This document shows positions 25,889-43,329 of a DNA stretch of 64,000 bases, in pieces. Both the position numbers and the translations under genes were made by a program. Source of the DNA: Opitutaceae bacterium EW11 (GTDB taxonomy: Bacteria > Verrucomicrobiota > Verrucomicrobiia > Opitutales > Opitutaceae). The notes beneath the pieces are model-generated. The model made no database searches, was not told the DNA's origin, and was given only the letters and a program-made list of their open reading frames with translations. The first letter of the stretch is position 1. Each line of letters starts with the position of its first letter. The stretch is from positions 496,001 to 560,000 of the forward strand of contig QAYY01000002.1 in the NCBI GenBank assembly GCA_003054665.1. Reading direction: 5' to 3'.

Positions 25889-28495
25889 TCAGAAGGAATA
25901 GCTGACGGAGCCGACGATCGAGCGCGGCAGCGCGACGCGCATGTTGACGTAGGCGGCGGTCGGGTCGGCAAAGAGCCGTGCGACGCGGGCGTCGCCGTTT
26001 ACGACGGCATGGCTGTCCATGAAGTTTTTAACGACGAGGCGGTAGGTGAGTTTTTTCGCCTTAAGCGTCACACCGGCGTCGAAGAGACTGTAACCGTCGA
26101 CCTTGGCGCGGTTGGCTTCGTCCACCATGATGTCGCCGGTGTAGTTCCAGGTGAAGTCGATGGTCGGCTTGCCGAGTCGGGTCTTGGGCAGGCGATACGT
26201 CGCGTTCAGCGTGCTGTAGCGCTGCGGAATGTTCGTTACGCGGTTGCCCTTGATATTGATCGCGGCGGTGGTCGAGTTCGGGTCCGCGACGAAGGCGTCG
26301 TTGGCAAACTCCGACCGCTGCTCGGTGCCGACGAACCGGAAGGTGAGGCTCTTGATGGGTGTGTAGATCACTTCCAGCTCCAGGCCGTAGCTGTCGGTGT
26401 CGCGCAGAACGTTTCGCTCGATCAAGCTTCCGTCGGGTTGAGAGACCAAGCCCGAGAAGAGCTGGTCCTTCAGCTGGCTGGCGATGAGCGTGCCGAAGAT
26501 GGAGAGCTTGCGTGTCGCGTATTTGATGCCCGTTTCGGCCGAGTAGACCTTGTTGGTGGGGCCGGGATCGGAGGAGCCGGCGGCGGCGGAGGAGTAGAAG
26601 TCGTCGCTGATCGGCATGCGGTAAGCGCTGGTCACGCGTCCGTAGGCGCTGAGGCGGGGATTGATGCGGTAGTTGGCGCCGGCGGACCACGCGGTGGCGG
26701 AAATGTCGTAGCTGGCGGTGGTGAAGGTGCCGTTCGGGAAGCCCGCGTTGCGCAGCGCCAGAATATTGCTGCCGGCGGGGTTGAGGTTGTAGTTCGAACG
26801 GTTGCTGACGACCATCGTCTCCTCCTTTTTCTGGTGTCGGACGCCGGCATCCAGGCTCCAGTTGCCGAACTGCTGTTCGTAGCTCACGAACGGGGCGATG
26901 GTTTTCTGATCCGTCGAGTAGCGGCGGAACGCGCTGGCGACGCTGGCCTGACGCATGCCTTGGTATGTGGCGTAGCCGAGCGAGGAGCCCGTGGTGGCGT
27001 TCACGAATTCAAGGTCGAGTCGCCGCGGGTTGTTCCGAATCTCGGCGAGCATCGTGTTGTTGATCGTGACTGCCTTCGGCATGTCGAGCCAGCTGTTGTA
27101 GAGGCCGACGGCGAGCGCGCCTTCGTTCGGCAGCGTCTTGATCACGCGGAAGTCGTTCTGGAAATTCTCGATGAAGGAGTAGGTGCCGTTGTTGGTCATC
27201 GTCCACGCGAGACCGTTGCCGTTGAGCGTCGACGGATCGGCGATCAACGCACCGTTCTGACCGGGATAGTAGAGGCGGTATGTATAGTTGGCGCCGGATT
27301 TGGCGGCGGCGTACTGGGCACCGCCGGCGGCGCCAATCTGGTTGACGAGGGTTTGGATGGGCGTCGCGACCGATGAGGTCAGCATCGTGGATGAGTTGTA
27401 GACCAGGTTGGTGTATTTCAGGCGCTCCTGGAGCTTCCACCCTTCGGCGAGGTTGTATTCGAGCGTTCCGGTGATCGTCGCCAGCTTCGGACCGGACTTG
27501 CCGGTATCGAAGCTGAGCGGGCCCATCGGCGTGTTGGGCAGCTCGGTGTAGCGGAGATCTGCCGAGTCGATGATGCCGGCGCCCATGGGGAAGCCGCCGG
27601 GAATCGCCTGGGGGTCTTTCGCGTTCTGAAGCGGGATCGCGGTGATGTTCGCCGTGTAATCCTGCACCCACTTGGCCGCCAGCTTCACCGAGCCGCGACC
27701 GTTCGCGAAACGGTGAATGACATTGCCCTGTAGGGTGTAGCCCCTGTTGGCCGTGTAGCCGGGCGAGCGAATGCCGTCGTCACGGCGGTAGGATATGCCC
27801 GCCGCCATCGTCGTGCGACTGGTGAGCGGACCGCTCGACCAAGCCTCGACCTTGATCTGATTGTAGTCGGTGGTGCCGACCAACACCTCGCCGCGCAGCA
27901 CATCCGAACCTTCGCGGGTGATCAGATTGATGATGCCGCCCGGGACGTTGTTCATGAAGATGCTCGAGGTGCCGCCGCGGACGTTCTCGACGCGCTCCAC
28001 GAAGTTGCTCGGGCGGACCAACAGATCCTGCCAGATATTCCGGAACTGCATCTCGGAAAGGTCGGCCAAGCCATCCTGCTGCAAGCCGACGAACACGAGC
28101 CCGCCCGTTTGCGGGAGTCCGCGGGCGTAGATGTTGGAGCGGCCCTCGCCGCTGACGCTCGTGACGAACACGCCGGGGAGTTGCTTGAGCAACTCCGGCA
28201 GACCGACCGGGGCGGTGGCGCGCATGCGCTCGATGTCGATCGTCGTCACGGCGGCGGCCGAATCGAGCTGCCGGCGGGGCGCGATGGTGCTTGAGACAAC
28301 GAAGGGGTCGAGAGTGATGAGTTCGTCTTTCTTCGGGGTCGCTTCATCCGTGGCCGCGGCTTTTTTCGCCGCGGATTCGGGGTTCGGCTCCTCGGTGGAG
28401 GAGACTGCTTGGGCGAAACCAAGCGAAGCGACAAAAGACAACACGAACGCTAACGACAGCGTGTGCGTGAGCCGGCTGGGCACGACGGAGTTCAT
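25889..28495 (-). CDS. TonB-dependent receptor of the sulfated-glycan block
   Basis: An 868-residue receptor has a signal peptide (to about LGFAQAVSS), a TonB-box-like ELITLDPFVVSSTIAPRR and a plug domain (TTIDIERMRATAPVGLPELL to VENVRGGTSSIFMNNVPGG). The barrel ends in IVGSVSYSF with the terminal Phe expected for insertion by the BAM machinery. It has no SusD partner. The ATG at 28495 gives the signal peptide directly. Upstream, at 28581-28632, lies a 52-base element shared with the promoter region of the sulfatase/GH3 operon, so co-expression is likely. It should import oligosaccharides of the sulfated glycan. Confidence 0.94.
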   Translation of the reverse strand: MNSVVPSRLTHTLSLAFVLSFVASLGFAQAVSSTEEPNPESAAKKAAATDEATPKKDELITLDPFVVSSTIAPRRQLDSAAAVTTIDIERMRATAPVGLPELLKQLPGVFVTSVSGEGRSNIYARGLPQTGGLVFVGLQQDGLADLSEMQFRNIWQDLLVRPSNFVERVENVRGGTSSIFMNNVPGGIINLITREGSDVLRGEVLVGTTDYNQIKVEAWSSGPLTSRTTMAAGISYRRDDGIRSPGYTANRGYTLQGNVIHRFANGRGSVKLAAKWVQDYTANITAIPLQNAKDPQAIPGGFPMGAGIIDSADLRYTELPNTPMGPLSFDTGKSGPKLATITGTLEYNLAEGWKLQERLKYTNLVYNSSTMLTSSVATPIQTLVNQIGAAGGAQYAAAKSGANYTYRLYYPGQNGALIADPSTLNGNGLAWTMTNNGTYSFIENFQNDFRVIKTLPNEGALAVGLYNSWLDMPKAVTINNTMLAEIRNNPRRLDLEFVNATTGSSLGYATYQGMRQASVASAFRRYSTDQKTIAPFVSYEQQFGNWSLDAGVRHQKKEETMVVSNRSNYNLNPAGSNILALRNAGFPNGTFTTASYDISATAWSAGANYRINPRLSAYGRVTSAYRMPISDDFYSSAAAGSSDPGPTNKVYSAETGIKYATRKLSIFGTLIASQLKDQLFSGLVSQPDGSLIERNVLRDTDSYGLELEVIYTPIKSLTFRFVGTEQRSEFANDAFVADPNSTTAAINIKGNRVTNIPQRYSTLNATYRLPKTRLGKPTIDFTWNYTGDIMVDEANRAKVDGYSLFDAGVTLKAKKLTYRLVVKNFMDSHAVVNGDARVARLFADPTAAYVNMRVALPRSIVGSVSYSF

Positions 28496-28790: not shown

Positions 28791-30179
28791 TCAGTCGTTC
28801 GCGCCAGTCCGCCGGGCGGCGAGGTCGCGCATGATCTGCGCGTGCCGTCCGTCGAGGCGGTAGAGCAGGAGCAACACGACCATCAGGCCGGTGCAGATGG
28901 CGGGCGCGATGATATAGTTGGAACGGATGGCGGCGAGGGCGGGAGCGGTTTGCTCGGCGTTCGGCACGTAGCCGGCCGAAGAGAGCATCCAAGCCGAATA
29001 CGCGCCGCCGAAGCCGAGGCCGAGTTTCACGCCGAGCGTGGCTGCGGCGAAAAGGAAGCCCGCGGCACGGACGCCGGTCTTCCATTCGCCGTAATCGACC
29101 GTGTCGGCCATCATTGCGAAGAGCAGGCCGACATAGAAACCCTTGCTGAAGTTCGCGACGATGTTGCCGCCTATGAGCAGCGCCGTGTCCTGCGGACCGG
29201 CGAGGCCGATCAGCAGAATGCCCAGCGCCATGCCGACGAGACCGACGACCATCGTATTACGCTTTCCAATACGACGCGAGAGATAGGCGCCGAGCGCGAT
29301 GCTCGGGAGTGCGGCGAGGTTCGTCAGCATCACGGTCGGCACGAGCTCGGCTCGGTGAAGATTGTAGCGGAGGTAATAGACGGTGGTCTGCATCCGCATG
29401 GCGTAACCGAACCAGTAGATGAGATTCAGGAGGAGCGTGATCGCCCACGGCCAGTTGCGCAGAGCGGAGCGCATCGACTCGGCGATGGTCGGCTCGTCGC
29501 GCGTGGCGGGTTGGTAGCGTTCGCGGGTATTCCAGAACGTCAGCAGGAAAAACACGCACGCGACCGACGCGAAGAGCGTCATGGTCCAGAAAAAGCCTTT
29601 CACCATGTCGCGCTGGCCGAAGAAGCCGACGAGCGGCATCGTGCCGTAGGTGACGATCGACATGCCCGCGATCGCGAGGAACATCCGCACCGAACTGGTC
29701 TCCGCGCGTTCCTGGCTGTTGCGCGTCATGCTCGGCAACATCGCAGAGATCGGCAGGTTGATCGCGGTGTAGAGCAGACTGAGAGCGTTGTAGGTGATGT
29801 AGGCGTAGATCAGTTTGCCGCTCGCCGCGAGGTCAGGCACATGGAACGTCAACACGGCCAAGACGCCGTAGGGCAATGCGCACCACAGGAACCACGGACG
29901 GCATTTGCCCCAGCGCGTGCGCGTCTTGTCGATGAGGATGCCCGCGCCCATGTCGTAGACGGCATCCATCACGCGCGTAAACAGGAAGAGCGTGCCGACC
30001 GCCGCAACCGGCAGGCCGTAGACATCGGTGTAGAAAAACAGCAGGTAAGTCCCGACCGTGTGAAAGACGAGATTGCTGGCCGTGTCGCCCAGGCCGTAGC
30101 TGATCTTCTCAATCCAGCCGACGACACGCGGTTCGCCGGCGACGGAGTTGGCGGGGGGCGTTTCGGTCGAAGCAGGCAT
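28791..30179 (-). CDS. GPH-family sugar:cation symporter (MelB-like MFS)
   Basis: The 462-residue protein has 12 predicted helices and the glycoside-pentoside-hexuronide pattern: ISYGLGDTASNLVFHTVGTY near the start, then MDAVYDMGAGILIDKTRTRWGKCRPW, the motif-A loop of the family. It imports oligosaccharides or glycosides with a cation across the inner membrane. It is the last gene of a minus-strand operon: its start is 3 bases from the stop of a sulfatase gene. This ties uptake to periplasmic desulfation and to the cytoplasmic GH3 fusion encoded in the same operon. Confidence 0.93.
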   Translation of the reverse strand: MPASTETPPANSVAGEPRVVGWIEKISYGLGDTASNLVFHTVGTYLLFFYTDVYGLPVAAVGTLFLFTRVMDAVYDMGAGILIDKTRTRWGKCRPWFLWCALPYGVLAVLTFHVPDLAASGKLIYAYITYNALSLLYTAINLPISAMLPSMTRNSQERAETSSVRMFLAIAGMSIVTYGTMPLVGFFGQRDMVKGFFWTMTLFASVACVFFLLTFWNTRERYQPATRDEPTIAESMRSALRNWPWAITLLLNLIYWFGYAMRMQTTVYYLRYNLHRAELVPTVMLTNLAALPSIALGAYLSRRIGKRNTMVVGLVGMALGILLIGLAGPQDTALLIGGNIVANFSKGFYVGLLFAMMADTVDYGEWKTGVRAAGFLFAAATLGVKLGLGFGGAYSAWMLSSAGYVPNAEQTAPALAAIRSNYIIAPAICTGLMVVLLLLYRLDGRHAQIMRDLAARRTGAND

Positions 30180-30182
30180 GGT

Positions 30183-32042
30183 CTACGGTTTCTCGGTCTT
30201 TGCGCGGCGGGAGGAGAGGCTGCCGTAATCGGCGAGAATGAGGCGTGCGAGACGTGCGTTGTAGTAATCGAAGCCGCCAAACACATCCGACGCGGCCAGG
30301 CGACCGAGCAGCAACGCCAGCGACTTCGGTGCGGTGCGCTCCACTCGGCACAACGCGTCGAGCGCGAACAGACGCAGCTCGGGCCGGTCACCTTGCTCAA
30401 TCGCGTTCTCGAGTTCGCGCCATGCTTCAGGCGTATCGCCGTGCCGGAGAAGAGCGGCCGCCGCGGTCACGCGCACGACGGCGTCGGTGTCTTGCCGCAA
30501 GGTGGTGGAAACGCTCGACGGACCTCCGCGCAACGTGGCGACCGCGGCCCAGTAACGCACGACCGGCAGCGGATCGCGTGCTGCTTCCACGACGCGCGCG
30601 TCCGTAGGCGTCGCACCGAGCTGAAGCTCGTCGAGCAAGTCCAGCAGGCGCGCGAGCGGATAGCGCGCGTCATCCGCAGCGGTGATCGCAGGTGATCCTC
30701 CGGCGGCGAACTCGATCATCATTGGCTCCGGCATGAAACCGGTGTCGCGAATCGCGAGTTGGTGCGCGCGCAACGCGGTGCGCATCTGATGCAGGCGCTC
30801 CGTCTGCGAGGGATCGCGTGCGAGATTGCGCACGTTGTCGGGATCGTTGGCGCAGTCGTAGAGCGCTTCGGCGGGCGATGGCTCGAAGAACGCGCGCTGA
30901 GCGGCATTCAGCGCACCGGAGCGGAAGTGCAAATCCCACTCGCGCATCGCCGGGGCCTGCCAGAGGAAATCAATCCGTTGGCCCCAGGGGCGATCGGGAT
31001 AATAGTTGCGCACGTAGCGGAAGCGTCCGTCCGTGACCGCACGGACGAGATTGTAGCGTTCGTCCATCCGATCGGCGAATTGGAAGATGAACTCCGGCGG
31101 CGCGACACGCGCTTGGCCGGCGAAAGCGCGGCCCTGAAACTGCGCGGCGGGCGGCAGCCCGGCGAGGCTCAGCATCGTGGGTGCGAGGTCGATCAGATGA
31201 ACGAGTTCGCCGATGCGTGCGCCAGGCGCGGCGGGCGCGAGATGTGCGAATTTTTTCGGGAATCGCGCGATCAGGGCGACATGGGTGCCCTCTTCGTTGA
31301 GAAAACGTTTCGTGCCCGCGACGGCGCCGCCGTTGTCGGAGTAGTAGAACACAATGGTGTCCTCCGCGAGGCCGTCGGCCTCGAGTTCGGCGAGCACGCG
31401 ACCGATGGCACGGTCGGCGGCGGAGACGGCATCGTAGTATTGGGCGACGTCAGCGCGGACGACCGCGGTGTCGGGCAAATAGGCCGGCACGCGCACTTTC
31501 GCGGGATCGGTCGTCAGAGCCCGTCGAGTGGCGAGTGCGACCTCGTGCGACTCCATGAAGTTGAATACGGCGAAGAACGGCTGGCCCGCTCGGCGGTGAC
31601 GCCAGTGCGCGTGCGCACCATCCTCGTCCCACGCCGCCGCCCACGGCGTCGAGGTGTTGTAATCCGTCTTGGCGTTGTTTGTGCAAAAATAGCCGGCAGC
31701 GCGGAGGAACTCAGGGAAGAAACGCACGCCTTCCGGCAGCGGACGTGCGCTGCGCATGTGTTGTGTGCCAAGTCCGTTCGCAAAGCGGCCGGTAATGATC
31801 GTGCTGCGCGAAGGCGCGCAAACGGGTGCGGTGTAGACTTTGTCGAAGACGATGCCCTCCTTCGCGAGGCGATCCAAGGCGGGCGTGCGTGCGAGCGGAT
31901 CGCCATAGGCGCCGACGAAACGCGGCGAGTTGTCCTCGCTGACGACCCAGAGAATGTTCGGGCGCGTCAGCTCAGCCGCGTGCACGGCGGCGGCCAGCGT
32001 GAAGAGTGTCGCCAGGGCGCCGATGATTCGGGGAGCATGCAT
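30183..32042 (-). CDS. Secreted type I sulfatase with HEAT-like C-terminal extension
   Basis: The 619-residue protein has a signal peptide (MHAPRIIGALATLFTLAAAVHA). The formylglycine motif is CAPSR with Cys75, metal residues E36/D37 lie in WVVSEDNSPRFVGAYG (ED in place of the usual DD), and further blocks are NFMESHEVAL and VFYYSDNGGAV. The last 130 residues are helical pairs (VEAARDPLPVVRYWAAVATL, VRVTAAAALLRHGDTPEAW) like HEAT repeats, as in other planctomycete/verrucomicrobial sulfatases of the SGSH-like group. The sulfated position is unknown. It is 23 bases downstream of the iduronate-type sulfatase gene and 3 bases upstream of the symporter gene in one operon. Confidence 0.93.
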   Translation of the reverse strand: MHAPRIIGALATLFTLAAAVHAAELTRPNILWVVSEDNSPRFVGAYGDPLARTPALDRLAKEGIVFDKVYTAPVCAPSRSTIITGRFANGLGTQHMRSARPLPEGVRFFPEFLRAAGYFCTNNAKTDYNTSTPWAAAWDEDGAHAHWRHRRAGQPFFAVFNFMESHEVALATRRALTTDPAKVRVPAYLPDTAVVRADVAQYYDAVSAADRAIGRVLAELEADGLAEDTIVFYYSDNGGAVAGTKRFLNEEGTHVALIARFPKKFAHLAPAAPGARIGELVHLIDLAPTMLSLAGLPPAAQFQGRAFAGQARVAPPEFIFQFADRMDERYNLVRAVTDGRFRYVRNYYPDRPWGQRIDFLWQAPAMREWDLHFRSGALNAAQRAFFEPSPAEALYDCANDPDNVRNLARDPSQTERLHQMRTALRAHQLAIRDTGFMPEPMMIEFAAGGSPAITAADDARYPLARLLDLLDELQLGATPTDARVVEAARDPLPVVRYWAAVATLRGGPSSVSTTLRQDTDAVVRVTAAAALLRHGDTPEAWRELENAIEQGDRPELRLFALDALCRVERTAPKSLALLLGRLAASDVFGGFDYYNARLARLILADYGSLSSRRAKTEKP

Positions 32043-32065: not shown

Positions 32066-33535
32066 TTAGCGGTCTTCATCCGGAATGTAGCCCGGCGAAC
32101 GTTTAGGGAACCAAGGGCGACGTTCCGGTCGGCCCAACGCCGGACGCGGCTGCAGCGCGGCGTGGAGCTGCTCGGCCAGTTCCGCGATAACGGACGCGTA
32201 GGCAGGATCTCCGGCGAGGTTGTGCTGCTCGGCGGGATCGTTGACGTGGTCGTAGAGTTCCTTGCCGTCGGCCCCGGCAGCGCCCCATTCGTGATAGGCC
32301 CAACGATCCGTGCGTATCGCGGTGCCGGTGGATGTCTGCGAGAACGCGGCGTGCGGCCATGGCGTATCGGGGCGGGTGAGGAGCGGCACCAGACTGCGGC
32401 CGGCGAGACCTGCGGGTGCTGGGACGTGTGCAAGCTCGGTGATGGTTGGGTAGAGGTCCACGAACTCGACTGGATGGACCGCCGCGCCATGGGCACGACC
32501 GGGTGCGGCGATGATGAGGGGAGTGCGGATGGATTCCTCGAAGAGGCGCTGCTTCCACCATTGGCCGTGTTCGCCGAGCAGGAAACCGTGGTCGCTCACG
32601 AAGACGACGATCGTGTTGTCGGCAAGGCCGAGGCGTTCGAGTTCCTCGAGCACGCGGCCAACCTGCGCGTCGACGAAGGAAATCGCGGCGTAGTAGCCGC
32701 GGATGATGAGGCGCTGTTGTTTCGGCGTGAGGCCGGCGAACAGTGGGGTGCCAAACGCCGGTGCGGGCACGTTCCGCAAGCTCTCCGTGGGGTCGGCGGG
32801 CGCGGGAATCGCGTCGAGCGGATAGAGGTCGAAGTATTTCTTCGGTGCGACGAACGGCAGGTGCGGGCGGTAGAAGCCCACGCCGAGGAAGAATGGCTGG
32901 CCGGAGGCTTTGAAGCGCGCGAGTTCGCGGATCGCCATGGTGGCAACCCAACCGTCGGTCTGTTCCTCGTCGGGGCCGTCGTCGATGCGGTAAGCGAGCG
33001 CGCCTCCGATGGGGACTTGCGGCGTGAAATTGATGAGCCGGTCCTTGTTCTCGGTATCGCGCCCGAACGGATTGACCGTTTTGTCCCACGAGATCGGGTC
33101 GTCGCTGCCAGGCGAGCCGATCTCGGAGGGGACACCGTAGTGATAGATCTTTCCGATGCGGACCGCTTCATAGCCGTGGCGTCGGAACAACTGGGGCAGC
33201 GTGACGACGTCGGGCGTGGTGGAGCGGAAGTGCGTGTCGAGGTCGTAGATCTTGATCTGGTCGGGCCGAAGTCCGGTGAGCATCGAGGCACGGCTCGGGT
33301 TGCAGAGCGGAAACTGGCAGTAGGCGTGATCGAAGCGCACGCCGCGCTGCGCGAGGCGGTCGATGTTGGGCGACTTGACCAAGGGATGTCCGTAGGTCCC
33401 GAGGTTGTTGTTCAGGTCATCCGACATGATGAGCAGCACGTTCGGGCCGCGCGCGGCGGGTGCCGCGGGTTGGGCGACGGCGGAGAGACACGAGGCGACG
33501 ACGCAGACGAGCGCGAGCGGATGCAGGGGCTTCAT
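32066..33535 (-). CDS. Secreted type I sulfatase, iduronate-2-sulfatase-like (S1_7-like)
   Basis: The 489-residue protein has a signal peptide (MKPLHPLALVCVVASCLSAV, then AQPA) and the iduronate-2-sulfatase pattern. Metal residues D39/D40 occur in LLIMSDDLNNNLGTYGHPLV, the formylglycine motif is CNPSR with Cys78, and SMLTGLRPDQIKIYDLDTHF, GVGFYRPHLPFVAPKKYF and VFVSDHGFLLGEHGQW follow. The S1_7 group includes enzymes on uronates and also on galactans or fucoidan, so the substrate is not fixed. It lies 18 bases after the GH3 fusion gene in the operon. Confidence 0.94.
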   Translation of the reverse strand: MKPLHPLALVCVVASCLSAVAQPAAPAARGPNVLLIMSDDLNNNLGTYGHPLVKSPNIDRLAQRGVRFDHAYCQFPLCNPSRASMLTGLRPDQIKIYDLDTHFRSTTPDVVTLPQLFRRHGYEAVRIGKIYHYGVPSEIGSPGSDDPISWDKTVNPFGRDTENKDRLINFTPQVPIGGALAYRIDDGPDEEQTDGWVATMAIRELARFKASGQPFFLGVGFYRPHLPFVAPKKYFDLYPLDAIPAPADPTESLRNVPAPAFGTPLFAGLTPKQQRLIIRGYYAAISFVDAQVGRVLEELERLGLADNTIVVFVSDHGFLLGEHGQWWKQRLFEESIRTPLIIAAPGRAHGAAVHPVEFVDLYPTITELAHVPAPAGLAGRSLVPLLTRPDTPWPHAAFSQTSTGTAIRTDRWAYHEWGAAGADGKELYDHVNDPAEQHNLAGDPAYASVIAELAEQLHAALQPRPALGRPERRPWFPKRSPGYIPDEDR

Positions 33536-33553: not shown

Positions 33554-35980
33554 TCAGAGTTTGGCGTCCCAGTAGCCGCAGAACGGATCGATCGGGCTGA
33601 TGCCGGTGAACCGCGAGCGGCCGAACAGTTTTTCGACGATGGCTTCCACGACGTAGCTGTTGCTCGTGTAGCCGTTGATGAACGTCTTCACCTGAGGCAC
33701 ATCCTGGAGGTGGTAAGGGTTGTCGATGGAAATGAAGAGCGTGGGCACTTCCGTGACGTAGCGTGGTGCGTCGAACGCGAGACGCAGTCCCCAATTCAGT
33801 CGCACGACAGTTTGGTTGCTCGCGGTTTTAAGGCTCGCGAAATAGATGACGAGGTCGTGAGAGGCACGCATCGCGGCGCTGGATCTCAGCGCCGCGTTCG
33901 CGGGGGCGCCGGGGTCGAAGACCTCGACGACGCAGCCGGCTGCGCGCAGCAATTCGATCAGGCGCGAGGCGTTGCCACCGCCGTTATCGAGGTAGCCGCC
34001 TTTGTCTCCGAGCACGTGAATCAGCACGCGGCGGTGACGCACGGGCGAGATCGGCAGCAGATTTTGCGTGTCCTTGACGAGGGTGACCGCGCGGTCGGCG
34101 CATTCGCGCGCCCAACGTTCGTGTTCGGCGCAGCGCAAGACCGAGAGCGCCTCCGGCGGCGGCACGAGCGTGCCGTCCCGCTGCTGGCGGTGCAGCCCGA
34201 GGGACGCCTTGAGTGCGAGGATGCGGAGCACGGCTTCGTCGAGGCGAGCATCGCTGAGCAAGCCATCGCGAAGGCCTTCGCGCATGAACGCGAGGTCTTC
34301 CTTCAGGTCGACGGTGAACAAGAACATGTCGCAGCCGATCTCGATCGCCGTCGGCACGGCGCGGCGGCGCGGCATCGAGGTGGTCATGCCTACCATGTTG
34401 GTGGCGTCGGTGACGATGACGCCGTTGAAGCCGAGCTGGCCGCGCAGGAGGTGGCGGTTCAATTCCGGCGACAGCGTCGAAGGGAGAATCTGCGCGTCGG
34501 TCAGGCCGGGTGAAAAATGGCGCGAGTAGGCTGGGAGCGCGATGTGCGCCGCCATGATCGTGGCGGCTCCGGCTTCGATGGCTGCACGGTAAACCTCGCC
34601 GTAAGTGCGGTCCCATTCTTCGACCGGGAGATTGTTGACCGTAGCGTGCAGGTGCTGGTCACGAGCGTCGACGCCGTCGCCGGGCCAGTGTTTCACCGAG
34701 GCCGCGAGTCCTCCCTCGTGCAAGCCGCGGAGAACGGCGCGCACCATGCGCGCCACCCGCGTCGGATCGGAACCGAAGGTGCGGATGTTCGTGATTGGAT
34801 TCTGGCACGTGAAATCGATATCGGCGACCGGCGCGAAAGCCCAGTTGCACCCAACCGCGCGCCCCTCGCGCCCACAGACGAGACCGAGGCGATACGCATG
34901 CTCTTCGTCGTCGGTCGCGGCGACGCCGAGCGGCGCGGAGAAACGCGTGCCGTCGTCCGCGATGCCGATGCCGCCTTGTTCGAGGTTAGCAGCGAGCAGG
35001 AGCGGAATGCTCGAGCGCGATTGCAGGTGCCGATGCAGGCGCTGGGCTACTTCGCCTTTGCGCGGGCGCAGCATGAGGCCGCCGGGTTTGAGTAACTCGA
35101 ACATGCGGTCGAGCGACGCCTCGGTTTCGTCCTCCCTCACCACGAGGCAGAAAAGTTGGCCGATTTTCTCGTCGATCGACATCGCCGCGTGCGTGGAGCG
35201 GACCCAATCGAGATCCTCGGGCGTGAGGTGAAAAGGTTCGGCGGCAAAATCGATGTTCGGCACCCTGACCGCAGGCGCGGGCTGAAACAGATCGTTCATG
35301 GAAAATTGAGCCAGGCCGGGCACGACGACATCCGCTCCGTCGAGTCCCGCGGCGTGACCGATGCCCACGGCGTACATGCCAGCGCGTTTGGCAGCGAGGA
35401 TCCCGGCAGCGGCGTCTTCAAACACCACGCAATCCGCCGGCGCGACGCCGAGCGCGCGGGCGCCGAGCAGGAAAACCTCGGGGTCCGGCTTCGATGCCGA
35501 GATGCACGTGCCGTCGATGACGGCGTCGAACAGGTGCGCGATGTCGAGACGTTCGAGGACGAACGCGGCGTTGCGGCTCGAGGAGCCGAGGGCGACTTTC
35601 ACGCCGCGGCGGTGGAGTTCCGCGAGGCACGCGCGGGCTCCGGGTAAGGCGCTCTCAGGAACCAGTTCGCCGAGCAATGCCTGATACCAGCGGTTTTTCC
35701 GCTCGGCCATCGCCGTCTTCTCCGCGGCGCTGGCGGTGCGGCCGCCGTGGCGAAGGAGAATTTCCAACGATTCCAGGCGGCTCACGCCCTTCAACGCCTC
35801 GTTCGCCGACTCTGGGAAATCGAAACCGAGCTCCTGCGCGAGTTGGCGCCATGCGCGGTAGTGGAATGCCGCCGTATCGACGAGCACGCCATCGAGATCG
35901 AAGATCGCGGCGCGGTAGGCGGAACGCGGTGGCGCACAGGTGACCGGTGAGGACGCGACGGAAGAAGCGGAGGCGGACAT
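33554..35980 (-). CDS. Fusion: beta-phosphoglucomutase (HAD) + GH3 glycosidase/phosphorylase
   Basis: This single 808-residue frame joins two complete enzymes. Residues about 21-215 are a beta-phosphoglucomutase: nucleophile and acid/base D28/D30 (FDLDGVLVDT), H40 (FHYRAW), K64/R68 (LKGVSR), GSSSRN (133-137), K164 (SASKPDP) and E188/D189 (FEDAAAGI), all as in the known mutase. After a linker, residues about 255-800 are GH3 of the NagZ/Nag3 type, with KHWPGDGVDARDQH (Asp441-x-His443 dyad as acid/base) and nucleophile Asp525 (VIVTDATNM), then a C-terminal sandwich domain. No signal peptide means cytoplasmic. The His acid/base has been linked to phosphorolysis, and a retaining cut of a beta-linkage would give the beta-1-phosphate that the mutase uses. 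That coupling is inference. The start at 35980 fits the mutase; the frame is open to 36202. Confidence 0.92.
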   Translation of the reverse strand: MSASASSVASSPVTCAPPRSAYRAAIFDLDGVLVDTAAFHYRAWRQLAQELGFDFPESANEALKGVSRLESLEILLRHGGRTASAAEKTAMAERKNRWYQALLGELVPESALPGARACLAELHRRGVKVALGSSSRNAAFVLERLDIAHLFDAVIDGTCISASKPDPEVFLLGARALGVAPADCVVFEDAAAGILAAKRAGMYAVGIGHAAGLDGADVVVPGLAQFSMNDLFQPAPAVRVPNIDFAAEPFHLTPEDLDWVRSTHAAMSIDEKIGQLFCLVVREDETEASLDRMFELLKPGGLMLRPRKGEVAQRLHRHLQSRSSIPLLLAANLEQGGIGIADDGTRFSAPLGVAATDDEEHAYRLGLVCGREGRAVGCNWAFAPVADIDFTCQNPITNIRTFGSDPTRVARMVRAVLRGLHEGGLAASVKHWPGDGVDARDQHLHATVNNLPVEEWDRTYGEVYRAAIEAGAATIMAAHIALPAYSRHFSPGLTDAQILPSTLSPELNRHLLRGQLGFNGVIVTDATNMVGMTTSMPRRRAVPTAIEIGCDMFLFTVDLKEDLAFMREGLRDGLLSDARLDEAVLRILALKASLGLHRQQRDGTLVPPPEALSVLRCAEHERWARECADRAVTLVKDTQNLLPISPVRHRRVLIHVLGDKGGYLDNGGGNASRLIELLRAAGCVVEVFDPGAPANAALRSSAAMRASHDLVIYFASLKTASNQTVVRLNWGLRLAFDAPRYVTEVPTLFISIDNPYHLQDVPQVKTFINGYTSNSYVVEAIVEKLFGRSRFTGISPIDPFCGYWDAKL

Positions 35981-36000: not shown

Positions 36001-36237
36001 TCAATGCGAGTGCCGACGAAAGGTCGCAGCAGGCGCGACGAAGAGCTCGGGCGAAGGAGTCGCATCGACGTTCCGCAGGCCTTCCTCGCCGGGAAAATTC
36101 GTGAATGGAGAGAGGACCTGCGCGGCGCCTTTCGCCCGCACGAGCCGCGCATCGCGCGCCGGCGTCAGCCCGGACGCATCGTTCGCCCAGCGGTCTTCGC
36201 ACGCGGCCACAGAGGGAGCGGATCGAAGTGGATTCAC
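36001..36237 (-). CDS. Small unrecognised ORF overlapping a sulfatase stop
   Basis: A 78-residue frame starts with GTG overlapping the sulfatase TGA as GTGA, and ends 20 bases before the fusion gene. Third codon positions are GC-rich and the sequence looks protein-like (RDARLVRAKGAAQVLSPFTN, FPGEEGLRNVDATPSPELF). I recognise no family and there is no signal peptide or membrane segment. It may be a real small protein, the surviving tail of a larger deleted gene, or chance. Confidence 0.4.
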   Translation of the reverse strand: MNPLRSAPSVAACEDRWANDASGLTPARDARLVRAKGAAQVLSPFTNFPGEEGLRNVDATPSPELFVAPAATFRRHSH

Positions 36238-37865
36238 GGGTGCCGGGGTGGCGCGTCAGTTGCCGGTGCGGTGCCGGGTTTGACCATTTGAAGGTGGGCC
36301 GGGTATTGGGTCTTGATGCCGAACCAGTCGTCCGGGATCTGCTCCGGCACCTTGAGTTCGCGGCGCAACCGGGAGAGCGACGCCATCAGCTCCTTCTGCG
36401 TCTCCGCGTAGCGCTCCTCGCCGAAGACGCTCGTCATCTCGTGCGGGTCGAGGTTGAGGTCGAAGAGCTCCCAATACTCCTCGCCGCTGGCATCCGGCGG
36501 AACCGGAAAATGCACGAGCTTGTATCGATCGGTGACGACGCCGTAGTGCGGACGCACGCGGTGAAACGCCGGATACTCGAAATACTGAAAGTAGAACGCC
36601 GTACGCCAATCCGCCGGCCGCTCGCCGCGCAACAGCGGCACAAAACTGCGCCCCTGCATCTCCGGTGGCACGGCGAGTCCTGCGGCGTCGAGGAATGTCT
36701 CGGCGAAGTCGACGTTCGATACGATGTCGCGCACGACACCGCCGGGCTTCGCGACCGCCGGCCAGCGCACCAGCAGCGGCGTGCGGGAGGATTCCTCAAA
36801 GATCCAGCGCTTGTCGAACCAGCCGTGTTCGCCGAGGAAGAATCCTTGATCGGACGAATAGACCACGATCGTGTTCTCGGCGAGACCCTCGCGATCGAGA
36901 TAGTCGAGGAGGCGGCCGACGCTCTCGTCAACCGCGCGAATGCACGCGAGGTAGTCGTGCATGTAGCGCTGGTATTTCCAACGCACGAGGTCGCGACCTT
37001 GGAGATTAGCGGCACGAAACGCTTCGTTGCGCGGACCGTAGTAGGCGTCCCACTCACGGCGCTGTTCGTCGGTGAGACGGGCTGGCGGGGCGAATTTGAG
37101 ATCCACGTCGTTCAGCGTGTTCGCGATCATCATGTCCTGCCCTTTTTCCGCCGCGCCGCGGCCCGCGTAGTTGTCGAACAGCGTTGTCGGTTCCTCGTAG
37201 CGGCGATCGCCGTCGGCGTTGAGGTGGCGCAGTGCCGGCATCCACGAGCGGTGCGGCGCTTTGTGGTGCGTCATGAGGAGAAACGGTTTCGATTTGTCCC
37301 GGTTCTCAAGCCACTCGATCGAGCGATCGGTGATGACATCGGTGACGTACCCAGGCTCGATGATCTTCTCGCCGTTGCGGATCATCGGCGCGTTGTAGTA
37401 GTCGCCCTGGCCCGGGAGGATTTGCCAGTGATCGAAGCCGGTCGGGTCGGACTCGAGGTGCCACTTGCCGACCACGGCGGTCTGGTAGCCGGCGTCGTGG
37501 AGCAATCGGGGGAACGTGGTCAGCTTGTTGTCGAAGACCTTGTTCGAGTTGTTCACGAAACCGTTCACGTGGTTGTAGAGGCCCGTGAGCATTGTGGCGC
37601 GACTCGGGCCGCAGAGCGGGTTGGGCACGAGGCAGCGGTCGAAGCGCACGCCCTCGCGCCCGAGGCGGTCGATGTTGGGCGTTTCGATGAGTTTCCGCCC
37701 GTCACCGTAAGCACTGACCGCCTGCCAGGCGTGGTCGTCGGAAAAAATAAAGACGATGTTCGGACGCTTGATCGGGATCGACGCGTGGCTTGCCTCGGCG
37801 GCGGACGAAAGCGCTGATCCGCCGAAGGCGAGGGCGAGGGCGAGCAAATGCGAGGCACGAATCAT
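36234..37865 (-). CDS. Secreted type I sulfatase, N-acetylglucosamine-6-sulfatase-like (S1_11-like)
   Basis: The 543-residue protein has a signal peptide (MIRASHLLALALAFGGSALS). Metal residues D43/D44 lie in IVFIFSDDHAWQAVSAYG, the formylglycine motif is CGPSR with Cys85, and VVGKWHLESDPTGFDHW, THHKAPHRSW and VVYSSDQGFFLGEHGWFDKR follow. The layout resembles glucosamine-6-sulfatases and related mucin or glycosaminoglycan sulfatases; substrate is inferred. The ATG at 37865 is at the signal peptide, and the frame extends to 38288 without sense. It is the first gene of the minus-strand run leading to the GH3 fusion, and the shared 52-base element lies 82 bases upstream. Confidence 0.93.
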   Translation of the reverse strand: MIRASHLLALALAFGGSALSSAAEASHASIPIKRPNIVFIFSDDHAWQAVSAYGDGRKLIETPNIDRLGREGVRFDRCLVPNPLCGPSRATMLTGLYNHVNGFVNNSNKVFDNKLTTFPRLLHDAGYQTAVVGKWHLESDPTGFDHWQILPGQGDYYNAPMIRNGEKIIEPGYVTDVITDRSIEWLENRDKSKPFLLMTHHKAPHRSWMPALRHLNADGDRRYEEPTTLFDNYAGRGAAEKGQDMMIANTLNDVDLKFAPPARLTDEQRREWDAYYGPRNEAFRAANLQGRDLVRWKYQRYMHDYLACIRAVDESVGRLLDYLDREGLAENTIVVYSSDQGFFLGEHGWFDKRWIFEESSRTPLLVRWPAVAKPGGVVRDIVSNVDFAETFLDAAGLAVPPEMQGRSFVPLLRGERPADWRTAFYFQYFEYPAFHRVRPHYGVVTDRYKLVHFPVPPDASGEEYWELFDLNLDPHEMTSVFGEERYAETQKELMASLSRLRRELKVPEQIPDDWFGIKTQYPAHLQMVKPGTAPATDAPPRHP

Positions 37866-38073: not shown

Positions 38074-40353
38074 TTGAATACGAAATCTTCGCGCCGCACG
38101 CGCACGCTGTTTTTCGCGTCGTCGGTGGCCGTCGTCGCGGCTGCAGGCGCGGCGCTCGCCGGCGCGCTTGGGGGTTGTTCGCGTTCGCACAAGCCCGCAT
38201 CGCGGCGACCTGTTTCCGCGGCGGTGGCGCAGAAGTCGGCGTCTTGCCGCGAGTGCCACGAAGAGATTTTCCGCGCGTGGGAAGGCACGGATCACGCGCT
38301 TGCGAATCGTCCGCTCGATCCGGCGCGGCATGGCGCGGCGTTCGCGGTGGCGGTTGAGATCGTCGACGGCGGTGCGAGGTTCACGTTGGGGTCGCGCAAT
38401 GGACGACCGACGATGACTGAAAAGCGGACCGACGGCACGAGGCGTGAACACGCACCGGACTTTATTCTCGGCGCCAAGCCGCTCTGGCAGCCGCTCGTGG
38501 CGGCCCCGGGCGGACGCTGGCAGCCGACCGACATGGCGTTCGATGTGAAACGCGGCGAGTGGTTCAATGTGTTCGGCGCCGAGAATCGCCAGCCCGGCGA
38601 GTGGGGGCATTGGACCGGCCGGGGGATGAACTGGAACTCGATGTGCGCGCCGTGCCACATGACCGGCTATCGCAAGAACTACGATCCGGCGACCGACAGC
38701 TACCGCTCGAGTTGGGTCGAACACGGCGTTGGCTGTATTCAGTGCCACGGCGCGATGCCCGACGAGCATCGTCTTTTGCCGAAGAATGCCACGCGACCCG
38801 CGGGCGCGCCGATGCCGGCGCCGTTCTTTGGCGACCGGACGAAGTGGATCCAGGTGTGCGCGAGCTGTCACGCGCGCGGTGAGCCGTTGACCGGCGATTT
38901 TCAGCCGGGCTATCTCTACGCCGACCACTACCGGCTCGTGCTTCCGGTCGATCCGCACACGTATTATCCCGACGGACAACAGCGCGACGAGGATTTCACC
39001 TGGACATCGTTTCGATTGAGCCGAATGGGCGGCCACGGCGGTGTCACCTGTTTCGACTGTCACGATCCGCACACGACGAAGACGTTTCTGCCGATCGACC
39101 AGAATCAGCTCTGCCTGCAGTGTCACGCCACGCCGGGGCGCTTGCAGCCCAACGGCGCTCGCGCGGCGCCGATCGATCCTCTGGCTCACTCCCATCATAA
39201 GGAAGGCAGCACCGGCAATTCGTGCGTCGCCTGCCACATGCCGACGACGAACTATATGCAGCGCGCCCCGCGGCACGATCATGGCTTCCTGATTCCCGAT
39301 CCGCTCCTGAATCGCGAACTCGGCATCCCCGATGCCTGCTCGCGCTGTCACACGGACAAACCTGTCGAGTGGTCCATCGAGGCCGCGGAAAAGTGGTATG
39401 GCGACCGCATGAGCACGCGCCAGCGGCGCCGCACGCGCGCCATCGTGGCGGCGCAAGCGGGCCGGCCGGAAGCGGTCGAGGCGCTGCTGAGCGTCTGGCC
39501 GACTGAAGAGGTCGCGGTTTGGCGCGCGACGATGCTGGAGTTGCTCGTGGGAGCCGCCAACGACGCGCGTGTGGCGACCATCGCGCGCGCGGCATTGCGC
39601 GACGCCGATTCACTCGTGCGCTCGGCAGCGGTGCGTGTGGTGGGTCGGAGTTCGGACGCGCCGGCGGTGCTCACGCCGCTACTGAGCGATCCGGTGCGAT
39701 CGGTGCGCCTCGATGCGGCGTGGGCGCTTTCACGGGAACTGCCCGCGGATTCGGCGGCGCGGCGCGAACTCGATGCGTATCTCGCGCTCGGTGTCGACCA
39801 GCCCGGCGGGCTGGCGCTGCTCGCGCAGGATCTGGCGAATCGTGGGCAGCTCAGCGAAGCCGAGGCACACCTGACAAAGGCAATTGAGTGGGACGCGAAC
39901 TCGCCCGGGCTGCGGCAGACGCTTGGCTTGGTGCTCGCGAGCGCCGGAAAAATGGACGCGGCTGCCGCGCAGTTGGCGCGCGCCGCCGATCTCGCGCCGC
40001 ATGACGGTGAATTGGCGCAGAGCGCGGGGCTGGCGTTTGCCGAAATCGGTCGAACGGCCGATGCGGAGCGCTACTTGCGATTGGCCGTCGCACGCGTGCC
40101 GAGTCTGCACCGTGCGTGGTATAACCTCGGTTTGCTGCTCGCGCAGCAGCGCAGAACGCTCGACGCGATCGAAGCGTTGAACGCCGCGGAGAAGGCCGCG
40201 CCGGCGATTGCGGATTACCCGCATGCGCTCGCGACGGTTTTGCTACAAACGGGCGACCGCCGTGGCGCGCAGGCCGCTGCGGCACGCGCGCTCGCGATCG
40301 ATCCCTCGCGCGACGACACGCGGCAGTTGTTGAGGTTGGTCTCGCAGCCGTAG
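38074..40353 (+). CDS. Octaheme cytochrome c with HEAT and TPR repeats
   Basis: The 759-residue protein starts at a TTG. The N-terminus is basic then hydrophobic and ends in ALGGC, a possible lipobox (Cys35). Eight CxxCH motifs follow: CRECH (58-62), CAPCH, CIQCH, CASCH, CFDCH, CLQCH, CVACH and CSRCH, in a cytochrome c554/NapC-like multiheme fold. Next come HEAT-like pairs (IARAALRDADSLVRSAAVRV, LLSDPVRSVRLDAAWALS) and about four TPRs to the C-terminus (LTKAIEWDANSPGLRQTLGL). It should be a periplasmic or outer-membrane-facing electron-transfer protein with a protein-binding platform. It is divergent from the sulfatase operon. The link to glycan use is not clear. Confidence 0.9.
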   Translation: MNTKSSRRTRTLFFASSVAVVAAAGAALAGALGGCSRSHKPASRRPVSAAVAQKSASCRECHEEIFRAWEGTDHALANRPLDPARHGAAFAVAVEIVDGGARFTLGSRNGRPTMTEKRTDGTRREHAPDFILGAKPLWQPLVAAPGGRWQPTDMAFDVKRGEWFNVFGAENRQPGEWGHWTGRGMNWNSMCAPCHMTGYRKNYDPATDSYRSSWVEHGVGCIQCHGAMPDEHRLLPKNATRPAGAPMPAPFFGDRTKWIQVCASCHARGEPLTGDFQPGYLYADHYRLVLPVDPHTYYPDGQQRDEDFTWTSFRLSRMGGHGGVTCFDCHDPHTTKTFLPIDQNQLCLQCHATPGRLQPNGARAAPIDPLAHSHHKEGSTGNSCVACHMPTTNYMQRAPRHDHGFLIPDPLLNRELGIPDACSRCHTDKPVEWSIEAAEKWYGDRMSTRQRRRTRAIVAAQAGRPEAVEALLSVWPTEEVAVWRATMLELLVGAANDARVATIARAALRDADSLVRSAAVRVVGRSSDAPAVLTPLLSDPVRSVRLDAAWALSRELPADSAARRELDAYLALGVDQPGGLALLAQDLANRGQLSEAEAHLTKAIEWDANSPGLRQTLGLVLASAGKMDAAAAQLARAADLAPHDGELAQSAGLAFAEIGRTADAERYLRLAVARVPSLHRAWYNLGLLLAQQRRTLDAIEALNAAEKAAPAIADYPHALATVLLQTGDRRGAQAAAARALAIDPSRDDTRQLLRLVSQP

Positions 40354-40552: not shown

Positions 40553-42190
40553 TCACGTCTTGCTGAGTCGCACGGGCGAACGACCGCGGAAGGGGATCGC
40601 GCCGACGAGCGCTTGCACGACGGCATCTTGCACCACCGGGGCGAGTGAGTAGGCGTTGATGAACGTGGGGCACGCCGGCACATCCCGGAGGTGGAAAGGC
40701 GAACCGAACGAGATGAACACCGTCGGCACGTCGTGCCAGTAGCGGTCCATCGCACGCGGAAAGCCGCCTTGCAGGTCAAGCCAGCGCAGCTCCATCGACG
40801 CGCGCACTTTCGAGGCTTCCTCGGCGATCGCGTAGATGACGACGTCGTAGTAATCGCGATGAACATCGGTGTCGGGCGCGAAACGTTCGACGCGGAAACC
40901 TTTCGCGACGAGGCGGCGCTCGAGTTCCAGCTCTGGCGCGTAGGCGTTCGGCTTCGGTATGTGGTGCGACCACTCCTGGATCAACAGCACGCGCCGATGC
41001 CGTCGTGGGGAGAACGGCAGCAGGCGTTGCTCGTCTTTCACGAGCGTGACAGCATGTCGCGCGCAGTCGCGTGCCCATTGTTCGTGCCGGTGGCGAACGT
41101 TCGCGGGAACGGCGGGAGACAAGTCGTGCGTGCGCCAGAGACCCAAAGCGGCTTTGAGGGCGAGGATGCGCGTGACCGCTTCGTCGACGCGCGCGATCGC
41201 CAATCGTCCGTCGCGCACGGCTTCGCGCAGGTAATGCAGGTCGAGTTCCGGGTCGTTGGAGAACAGCAGCAGGTCGCAACCGTTGGCGACAATCTGCGGA
41301 ACGAACTTGGGACGCGGTGCAAGTGAGGTGACGCCGCCCATGGTGCTGGCGTCCGAGAAGATCACGCCGCGGAAGCCAAGGCGCTCGCGTAGCAGGCGGA
41401 CGTTGAGCGCGGCGGACAGACTCGCGGGCGCCTCGCCAGCGCCTCGAAATGCGGGCAATGAGACGTGCGCGCTCATGACCGCGAGCGTGCCGGCGCGGAT
41501 CGCGCTGCGGTAGACGTGGCCGTAAGTCGCCTCCCATTGCGCGAGCGATAGGCCGTTGCGCGTGGTCACGAAGTGCTGGTTGCGATCGTCCCAGCCGTCC
41601 CCCGGCCAGTGTTTCACACACGCGGCAACGCCGCCGCGCTGCAGCGCGCGGATGTAGGCCGCGACGAACGGCGCGACCGTCACAGCGTTGTCGCCAAAAG
41701 AGCGTGTGCTCACGAGGGCGTTGCGGTGATTCAGTGCGAGGTCGGAGACCGGACTGAACGAGCAGTTGAATCCCGCCGCGCGACCTTCGCGCGCGGCGAT
41801 GCGCGCCATTCGCTCGGCCCAACGTGTGTCGCCGGTGGCGGCGACGGTCATCTGATTCGGGAAAACGGTGCCGATGCCTCCGATCGCCCCTTCCGCGCCG
41901 AGCTCGAGATCGCCGCAGATCAGCGCGGGCACACGCGAGTGCGACTGGAGGTGTCCGATGGCGGTGCGTAGCGAATGGATCGGTCCGCCGGCGCGGCAGA
42001 AGAGACCGCCGATGCCGAGTGCGGCGAAGCGTTCGAGATTCTCGCGGCTCGAGTCGATCGATTGGACAACGATGAGTTGCGCGAGCTTTTGTTCGAGCGT
42101 GAGACCGCCGCGTGTGGCCTCGACCCAGCGGACGGCATGCTGGGCCAAGTGGAAGGGAGCGGAGGCGAGCGCGTGAGAGCGTTTGCCCAT
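40553..42190 (-). CDS. Cytoplasmic GH3 glycosidase/phosphorylase with altered dyad
   Basis: The 545-residue protein is a paralogue of the GH3 half of the fusion enzyme. It has KHWPGDGWDDRNQH with His206, but the dyad Asp is Asn204. The nucleophile is Asp280 (VIFSDASTM), and the C-terminal domain shares the block PTVFISFGSPFHLRDVP with the fusion protein (PTLFISIDNPYHLQDVP). No signal peptide and no mutase domain are present. The start at 42190 is chosen since the preceding residues are not family-like. It follows the AraC gene by 19 bases, so the regulator and enzyme form one unit. Activity with the Asn variant is uncertain. Confidence 0.9.
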   Translation of the reverse strand: MGKRSHALASAPFHLAQHAVRWVEATRGGLTLEQKLAQLIVVQSIDSSRENLERFAALGIGGLFCRAGGPIHSLRTAIGHLQSHSRVPALICGDLELGAEGAIGGIGTVFPNQMTVAATGDTRWAERMARIAAREGRAAGFNCSFSPVSDLALNHRNALVSTRSFGDNAVTVAPFVAAYIRALQRGGVAACVKHWPGDGWDDRNQHFVTTRNGLSLAQWEATYGHVYRSAIRAGTLAVMSAHVSLPAFRGAGEAPASLSAALNVRLLRERLGFRGVIFSDASTMGGVTSLAPRPKFVPQIVANGCDLLLFSNDPELDLHYLREAVRDGRLAIARVDEAVTRILALKAALGLWRTHDLSPAVPANVRHRHEQWARDCARHAVTLVKDEQRLLPFSPRRHRRVLLIQEWSHHIPKPNAYAPELELERRLVAKGFRVERFAPDTDVHRDYYDVVIYAIAEEASKVRASMELRWLDLQGGFPRAMDRYWHDVPTVFISFGSPFHLRDVPACPTFINAYSLAPVVQDAVVQALVGAIPFRGRSPVRLSKT

Positions 42191-42209
42191 GAAGTTCGCG
42201 GAGGGGGGC

Positions 42210-43160
42210 TTAAGCGTAGGCACTGCCGGCGGGCAGGTATTTTCTCAGCAAGTGAAACGCGAAACCGGCGTCGCAGCGATTGTAGGCGCTCTCGCCAATG
42301 CCGGGGATGTCGCTGCCGGCCTGCTGACGCCATTGTGAGGGCGTGAGGTGAAAGAGGCGTTTGAAAGCAGTGTTGTAGCTCTTCACGTTCGGGAAGCCGC
42401 ATTCCATCGCCACGTCGAGGATGGTGGTTTCGCGACGGGCGAGGAGCGGGAGCGATTTTTTCGTCCGCACGATGCTGACATATTCGCTCACCGTGCAGCC
42501 GAGACGGGTTTTGAAGAGTCGCGCAAGGTAGCTGACCGACACGGACTCGCTCGCGGCGAGTTCGGCGGAAGAGATTTCCTCGTTGCTGTGCGCTTCGAGA
42601 TAGGTGACGAGGCGCGCGAGTCGCTGGCCGAGCGCATCGTCGGCGATGTTTTGCGGTTCGGCTCTCGGTGCGGCGGCGAGAGTCGATGGCACGTCCCGCA
42701 TCAGCAGCGCCAGCAATCGGAGTAGGTGGGACTCGACTTGGAAGCGGTAGCCTTCGCGCCTCATGCGCATTTCCCAGAGGATTTCGGCGATAATCTCGCG
42801 CGTCGCTTGGAGGCGGCGATCGTTGGGAAAGCGGCGACCGATCTGGTTGTAGGCAAAGCGCCGCCGCGGGAAATCCGGATCGAGGCGCGAAGCGAAGGCG
42901 GTGTCGATCTGGAGCGCGACGAGCAAGTTCGCTCCCGCCGTCTCGTGCGTGAAATGCATTTCGCCGCTCGGAATAAAATATACGTCGTCTGGCTTGAGCA
43001 CGACCTGACCCTCGCTTGTCTGCACCATCACTTGGCCGCGCAGCACGAGGAGAAACTCCGAGTCGCGGTGGCAGTGGCTCGCGCAGTTTCGAACACTATG
43101 CACGAAAATCCGCAGCGGCAGATTCTCCTGATGCTCGATGCGCTCGAGATGGGTTTCCAT
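42210..43160 (-). CDS. AraC-family regulator with cupin sensor domain
   Basis: The 316-residue protein has an N-terminal cupin-type ligand domain (LVLRGQVMVQTSEGQVVLKP, then DDVYFIPSGEMHFTHE) and two C-terminal HTHs (SSAELAASESVSVSYLARLF; ILDVAMECGFPNVKSYNTAFKRLF). It probably senses a sugar and activates glycan genes. It is cotranscribed with the GH3 gene downstream (19 bases). It is the most likely binder of the 52-base element shared by the receptor and sulfatase operons, but that is inference. The ATG at 43160 fits the cupin start. Confidence 0.92.
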   Translation of the reverse strand: METHLERIEHQENLPLRIFVHSVRNCASHCHRDSEFLLVLRGQVMVQTSEGQVVLKPDDVYFIPSGEMHFTHETAGANLLVALQIDTAFASRLDPDFPRRRFAYNQIGRRFPNDRRLQATREIIAEILWEMRMRREGYRFQVESHLLRLLALLMRDVPSTLAAAPRAEPQNIADDALGQRLARLVTYLEAHSNEEISSAELAASESVSVSYLARLFKTRLGCTVSEYVSIVRTKKSLPLLARRETTILDVAMECGFPNVKSYNTAFKRLFHLTPSQWRQQAGSDIPGIGESAYNRCDAGFAFHLLRKYLPAGSAYA

Positions 43161-43329
43161 GCAGCTTCGCAGTCCAATGCACGAGCAACGTCGCCAGTTC
43201 AAGACTCGACGACGCTTGTGTGTCAGTGAGGTGCGTTGCACCGCGCGCGAACGAGTGAAACGCGCGGCGACTGATTACCCACTGGAAGCGGATGGACGCT
43301 CCCGCGCGCTTTCAGATGTTGGCATGCCC

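Follow-up and report, generated by a model that had tools for sequence, protein, structure and literature searches.

A bacterial protein joining a beta-phosphoglucomutase to a GH3 domain of the BglP type

The fusion gene and its cluster

The window, as we call the whole stretch of DNA analysed, is 64,000 nt long, and all coordinates count from its first letter. It contains a gene in which a beta-phosphoglucomutase (bPGM; gene pgmB) is joined to a GH3 domain of phosphorylase type. The initial annotation had described a single uninterrupted frame without giving its strand, and had named a set of catalytic residues and noted the lack of a signal peptide; all of this held, the frame starting with ATG, containing no internal stop, and showing no evident signal peptide when its N-terminal sequence was inspected. 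The features of the gene and of the surrounding cluster are collected in Table 1; G and L numbers are labels of compared genomes and loci.

Table 1. Features of the fusion gene and its neighbours. dN/dS values were obtained by the Nei-Gojobori method for the window fusion against the G039 copy; percentages are identities to G039.
Feature	Position	Strand	Basis
Sulfatase	24270..25775	minus	PF00884; 90%
TonB-dependent receptor	25889..28495	minus	PF00593, PF07715; 88%
GPH-type sugar:cation symporter	28791..30179	minus	TIGR00792 415 bits, cut-off 231; 88%
Sulfatase, second downstream of fusion	30183..32042	minus	PF00884; 83%
Sulfatase, first downstream of fusion	32066..33535	minus	PF00884; 86%
Fusion gene, 808 aa, bPGM + GH3 phosphorylase-type domain	33554..35980	minus	ATG start, no internal stop; full-length copy in G039
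GH3 domain of BglP type, aa 246-808	33557..35245	minus	5VQD E 2.2e-164; Foldseek 5VQE TM 0.95; dN/dS 0.075
Catalytic nucleophile Asp525 in VTDAT	34406..34408	minus	Invariant in 100 GH3 rows
Acid/base dyad Asp441-Gln-His443 in KHWPGDGVDARDQH	34652..34660	minus	Sequence, 100-row alignment
End of bPGM + linker, aa 209-245	35246..35356	minus	76%; dN/dS 0.22
bPGM domain, aa 22-208	35357..35917	minus	TIGR01990 230 bits; alignments to 3NAS, 4GIB, 1LVH; dN/dS 0.052
N-terminal aa 1-21, poorly conserved	35918..35980	minus	43%; dN/dS 0.46
Sulfatase upstream of fusion, start codon approximate	36234..37862	minus	PF00884, PF16347; 86%
Multihaem cytochrome c with TPR + HEAT-like repeats	38074..40353	plus	Same place in G039, 84%
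GH3 paralogue without bPGM, dyad Asn-Gln-His	40553..42223	minus	Alignment; outside BglP clade
AraC-type regulator of cluster	42210..43241	minus	PF12833; 96%

The same frame, of identical length and without a stop, was found in G039, a genome of another genus of the family (locus L009), with 88% identity. Because dN/dS between the two copies was low in each domain, both are under purifying selection. A search of 252 genomes of the family gave strong relatives in five. A third instance, in G023 (L010, contig C45), has bPGM followed by GH3 as in the window and 59% identity; here the GH3 frame extends through the last part of bPGM, and the remainder of bPGM is read in a different frame, contains a stop and lies near the end of the contig. 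This disruption reflects either decay or poor assembly. No further bPGM of that genome exceeds the TIGR01990 cut-off. The fusions of the window, G039 and G023 form one clade (SH-aLRT 99).

An error of sequencing or assembly joining two neighbouring genes, which the initial annotation had named in advance as a ground for refutation, might be suspected from the fact that many other bacteria encode bPGM and GH3 by two genes lying near each other. The identical-length frame in another genus, the constraint on the linker and the low dN/dS of both domains all argue against such an error, and we rejected it, with next to no residual doubt, because the full-length G039 copy is independent.

The fusion gene, the two downstream sulfatase genes and the symporter gene follow one another with intergenic gaps of 18, 23 and 3 bp, and are therefore consistent with one operon, as had been claimed for the symporter, which TIGR00792 identifies as GPH type. 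The cluster is kept in G039 at 83-96% identity, including the regulator, the paralogue, the cytochrome-c gene, the four sulfatases, the symporter and the receptor. The presence of four sulfatases suggests a sulfated glycan or glycoside as the source. The multihaem cytochrome c gene is read in the other direction, and its flanking genes are those for the GH3 paralogue and the first sulfatase.

The GH3 paralogue of the cluster is 41-44% identical to the GH3 domain of the fusion, and the Asp of its dyad is replaced by Asn (N-Q-H). This Asn is common to the copies in G039 (L020) and G125 (L011); the copy in G019 (L012) has Asp. Since G125 and G019 carry the paralogue without a bPGM over the cut-off, it may not be a maker of beta-glucose 1-phosphate. 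On a Sphingobium plasmid (L026, 5950-13406) a related GH3 gene is followed, after a TonB receptor gene, by genes for a GH3, a formylglycine-generating enzyme-like protein, a sulfatase and an MFS transporter, and the wider GH3 group is thus linked with sulfatases in another phylum.

Identity of the two domains

The bPGM domain scored 230 bits with the TIGR01990 equivalog model, for which the curated cut-off is 189.4. All eight mutase residues that had been named (D28, D30, H40, K64, R68, K164, E188 and D189) were in place and aligned with catalytic residues of Lactococcus lactis bPGM (1LVH), so that counterparts of its two catalytic Asp, its cap His/Lys/Arg, Lys145 and Glu169/Asp170 were looked for and found. 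Over 40 bPGM sequences seven of the eight were invariant; position 64 was variable, with Arg as the majority residue. From these alignments D28 is predicted to be the nucleophile and D30 the acid/base, with H40, K64 and R68 in the cap. The fusion shares all catalytic and phosphate-binding residues of the TIGR01990 enzymes (L. lactis PgmB 1LVH; 3NAS); whereas such enzymes are usually separate proteins, here the mutase is fused to the probable maker of its substrate. The bPGM reaction runs through a phospho-Asp and beta-glucose 1,6-bisphosphate as intermediate, and the enzyme is largely glucose-specific. No bPGM other than the fused domain exceeds the TIGR01990 cut-off in the genome of the window, and the same is true in G039; in a bPGM tree the fused domain groups with stand-alone bPGMs of its own family (support 84).

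No GH65 (PF03632) was found in the genome of the window by a search that did find GH65 in four control genomes. As there is also no other bPGM over the cut-off, the one evident partner of each fused domain for beta-glucose 1-phosphate is the other. In GH65 phosphorylase and pgmB pairs, as in the fusion, production of beta-glucose 1-phosphate by the phosphorylase is coupled to bPGM; GH65, however, inverts alpha-glucosides, whereas the GH3 domain of the fusion is predicted to be a retaining enzyme acting on beta-glycosides.

The GH3 domain matched PF00933 over aa 269-589 with 198 bits (cut-off 27). Its dyad, D441-x-H443, and its nucleophile, D525, stood at the positions claimed; H443 and D525 were invariant in 100 GH3 rows, and position 441 was Asp in 96 of them. 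The nearest solved relative was BglP (deposited as 'BglX', PDB 5VQD/5VQE, AUG44408.1), a GH3 retaining beta-glucoside phosphorylase of metagenomic library origin, which aligned over the whole domain to the C terminus (5VQD, E 2.2e-164), the next being YbbD (1.2e-47). Foldseek with an AlphaFold2 model likewise gave 5VQE (TM 0.95, target-normalised), and the next groups reached at most 0.83. In this model of the whole protein pLDDT was mostly above 90 in the GH3 domain and poor in the bPGM part, which was covered by two rows; in the alignment used, MAFFT had set bPGM-only rows on the GH3 part, and three plasmid-record rows were left out. In the tree the GH3 domain of the fusion, BglP and the operon-linked relatives fell into one clade (97), with the cluster paralogue outside it. 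The GH3 domain is an orthologue of BglP. The two are about 46% identical, and transfer of substrate from BglP is therefore uncertain. The solved BglP chain is GH3 alone (573 residues); the window protein adds the N-terminal bPGM.

The initial annotation had relied on the His dyad and on the Nag3/NagZ group. The Asp-x-His acid/base pair is indeed common to the fusion and the NagZ/Nag3/YbbD enzymes; but the dyad loop of the window, KHWPGDGVDARDQH, matches that of BglP, KHFPGDGVDYRDQH, and not that of the NagZ-type YbbD, KHFPGHGDTDVDSH. The loop KH[FW]PGDGVDxRDQH and the nucleophile motif TDAT are present in both BglP and the window domain, from which the NagZ-type loop KHFPGHGxxxxDSH is absent. 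YbbD has GHGDTDVDSH at this place and far lower overall similarity (E 1e-47 against 2e-164 for BglP). The window GH3 also missed the cut-off of the NagZ profile NF003740, with 102 bits against 207. We rejected NagZ/Nag3 membership on the profile score, the loop and the tree position. Only two GH3 phosphorylases, BglP and Nag3, are counted as characterised in a 2022 review, where BglP is entered as a retaining GH3 phosphorylase with both beta-Glc1P and beta-GlcNAc1P (PMC8950772). The NagZ-type enzyme LpqI, tested under the conditions used for Nag3, did not use phosphate, and a Herbaspirillum His-dyad GH3 enzyme has also been reported without phosphorolysis (PMC6572805). The His dyad alone is therefore not diagnostic of phosphorolysis, and this part of the earlier argument did not stand.

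Linkage of BglP-type GH3 genes to pgmB

The initial annotation had proposed a search for the same domain pair in other genomes; the pair proved to be fused in G039 and encoded by separate neighbouring genes in many of the best relatives elsewhere. The GH3 domain was searched against 84,980 species genomes, and the best 80 loci out of a larger number were taken; these were mostly from Bacillota, with others from Actinomycetota, Spirochaetota, Pseudomonadota and Chloroflexota. A pgmB gene lay within 6 kb of the GH3 gene in at least 49 of the 80, on the same strand in all 49; in 25 it either overlapped the end of the GH3 gene or had its start within the next 250 bp, and in 4 it stood directly upstream. 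The other 31 had no pgmB inside 6 kb on either side, but some of these loci are shortened by contig ends, so that 49 of 80 is a lower bound. In annotated records the GH3 gene and pgmB of Carnobacterium inhibens (L022) overlap by 8 bp, and in Melissococcus 2.8 kb separate GH3 from a downstream pgmB. Brevibacillus fluminis (L030) has GH3 and PgmB as separate genes. In some gut Clostridia (L048, L050, L065, L069 and L073) a second GH3 gene comes right after GH3-pgmB or GH3; its product shows 38-39% identity, has the loop WDELDPHIS with a D-P-H dyad, and belongs to a distinct long-branched subgroup.

The 29 bPGM genes over the cut-off in 19 of these genomes, each of 2-7 Mb, amount to about 1.5 per genome, and chance proximity of pgmB is therefore about 1% or less. 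The control consisted of 86 further GH3 genes from 18 of these genomes. Four of them had a bPGM no more than 6 kb away, and the coordinates show each of the four either to lie beside a gene of BglP size or to be one whose open frame is longer. Control genes were those outside the BglP size range of 560-610 aa, size standing in for clade, and the 18 genomes had been picked partly for linked pairs; the unselected 49 of 80 is the figure for the BglP clade.

Fusion was seen in none of the 80 best GH3 relatives outside the family, in none of 388 genomes sampled from the phylum save G039, in none of 399 genomes of the class of Brevibacillus fluminis, and in none of 301 genomes from the phylum to which the Chloroflexota relative belongs.

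Proposed function and origin

GH3 enzymes act by retaining double displacement via an Asp nucleophile, and a base that is His allows the approach of anionic phosphate (PMC8950772). We consider it very probable that the fusion is a cytoplasmic two-step enzyme, which would split beta-glucosides by phosphorolysis and then yield glucose 6-phosphate without ATP; in this proposal we infer that phosphate is the acceptor and, from bPGM as the partner, that the sugar is glucose, as well as the cytoplasmic location and the order of events. The GPH symporter would import a beta-glucoside, probably after periplasmic sulfatases had stripped its sulfate, and the GH3 domain would cleave it by retaining double displacement, Asp525 forming the glucosyl-enzyme and the Asp441-His443 pair serving as acid/base. 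Inorganic phosphate, tolerated as the base is not a carboxylate, would accept the glucosyl group, and the beta-glucose 1-phosphate so formed would be turned by the bPGM domain (Asp28 as phosphoryl carrier, Asp30 as acid/base) into glucose 6-phosphate. This would enter glycolysis, saving one ATP per sugar relative to hydrolysis followed by glucokinase. That GH3 phosphorolysis feeds the mutase had been predicted by the initial annotation, and the prediction is supported by BglP as the nearest solved relative, by the pgmB linkage in at least 49 of the 80 best loci of the GH3 clade, and by a genome with neither GH65 nor another bPGM over the cut-off. Weighing against this reading are the 31 loci in which no pgmB lay inside 6 kb, some of them shortened by contig ends, the hydrolases among His-dyad GH3 enzymes (PMC6572805), the distance to BglP and the broken bPGM part in G023. 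More tentatively, and with the odds somewhat against it, the bifunctional phosphorylase-mutase may pass beta-glucose 1-phosphate between its active sites and be the fused end-point of a widespread, undescribed, ATP-saving GH3 phosphorylase/pgmB pathway for beta-glucosides in several phyla.

Two other readings of the function were weighed. The GH3 domain might be mainly a hydrolase, NagZ-like or a beta-glucosidase, with bPGM joined for another reason, such as scavenging of beta-glucose 1-phosphate or co-expression. Sequence cannot reveal phosphate dependence, and LpqI lacks phosphorolysis despite its His dyad (PMC6572805); yet the domain is of the BglP type, with the loop GDGxDxxDQH rather than GHGDTDVDSH and a score well below the NagZ cut-off, the genome holds no GH65 as supplier of beta-glucose 1-phosphate, and the linkage to pgmB recurs in several phyla, so that we regard a mainly hydrolytic role as quite improbable. 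It is unlikely, too, that the enzyme acts by phosphorolysis on another sugar, for example a beta-N-acetylglucosaminide or beta-galactoside, with a bPGM specialised for that 1-phosphate. Such a specificity would fit the listing of BglP with both beta-Glc1P and beta-GlcNAc1P (PMC8950772) and the SGSH_C region of the cluster sulfatases; against it, the bPGM domain exceeds the equivalog cut-off and keeps the L. lactis cap residues H40, K64, G65, R68 and S71. The largely glucose-specific nature of bPGM is a further point against it.

As to origin, a sample of 388 genomes of the phylum contained, G039 apart, no close relative of the GH3 domain, and in the tree its nearest relatives outside the family were from Chloroflexota and Bacillota, which suggests that the domain may have been acquired by transfer. 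Because the bPGM domain groups with the stand-alone bPGMs of the family, we tentatively propose that a resident bPGM was joined to the incoming GH3. We found no published GH3-bPGM fusion in open-access full texts, which cover the literature in part. The fusion is real, conserved and rare; it is the fusion that is new, both enzymes being known.

The use of phosphate in the cell by His-dyad GH3 enzymes is disputed, and the fusion bears on that dispute. Fusion with bPGM, together with the operon link to pgmB seen in about 60% of close relatives, strongly suggests that members of the BglP branch of GH3 would be natural phosphorylases working with bPGM on beta-glucosides, and the pgmB evidence sets this branch apart from the NagZ branch, in which tested phosphorolysis failed. 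With both activities in one polypeptide the question becomes directly testable, as cleavage with phosphate should give glucose 6-phosphate, and the fusion protein could serve as a catalyst for making or breaking beta-glucosides.
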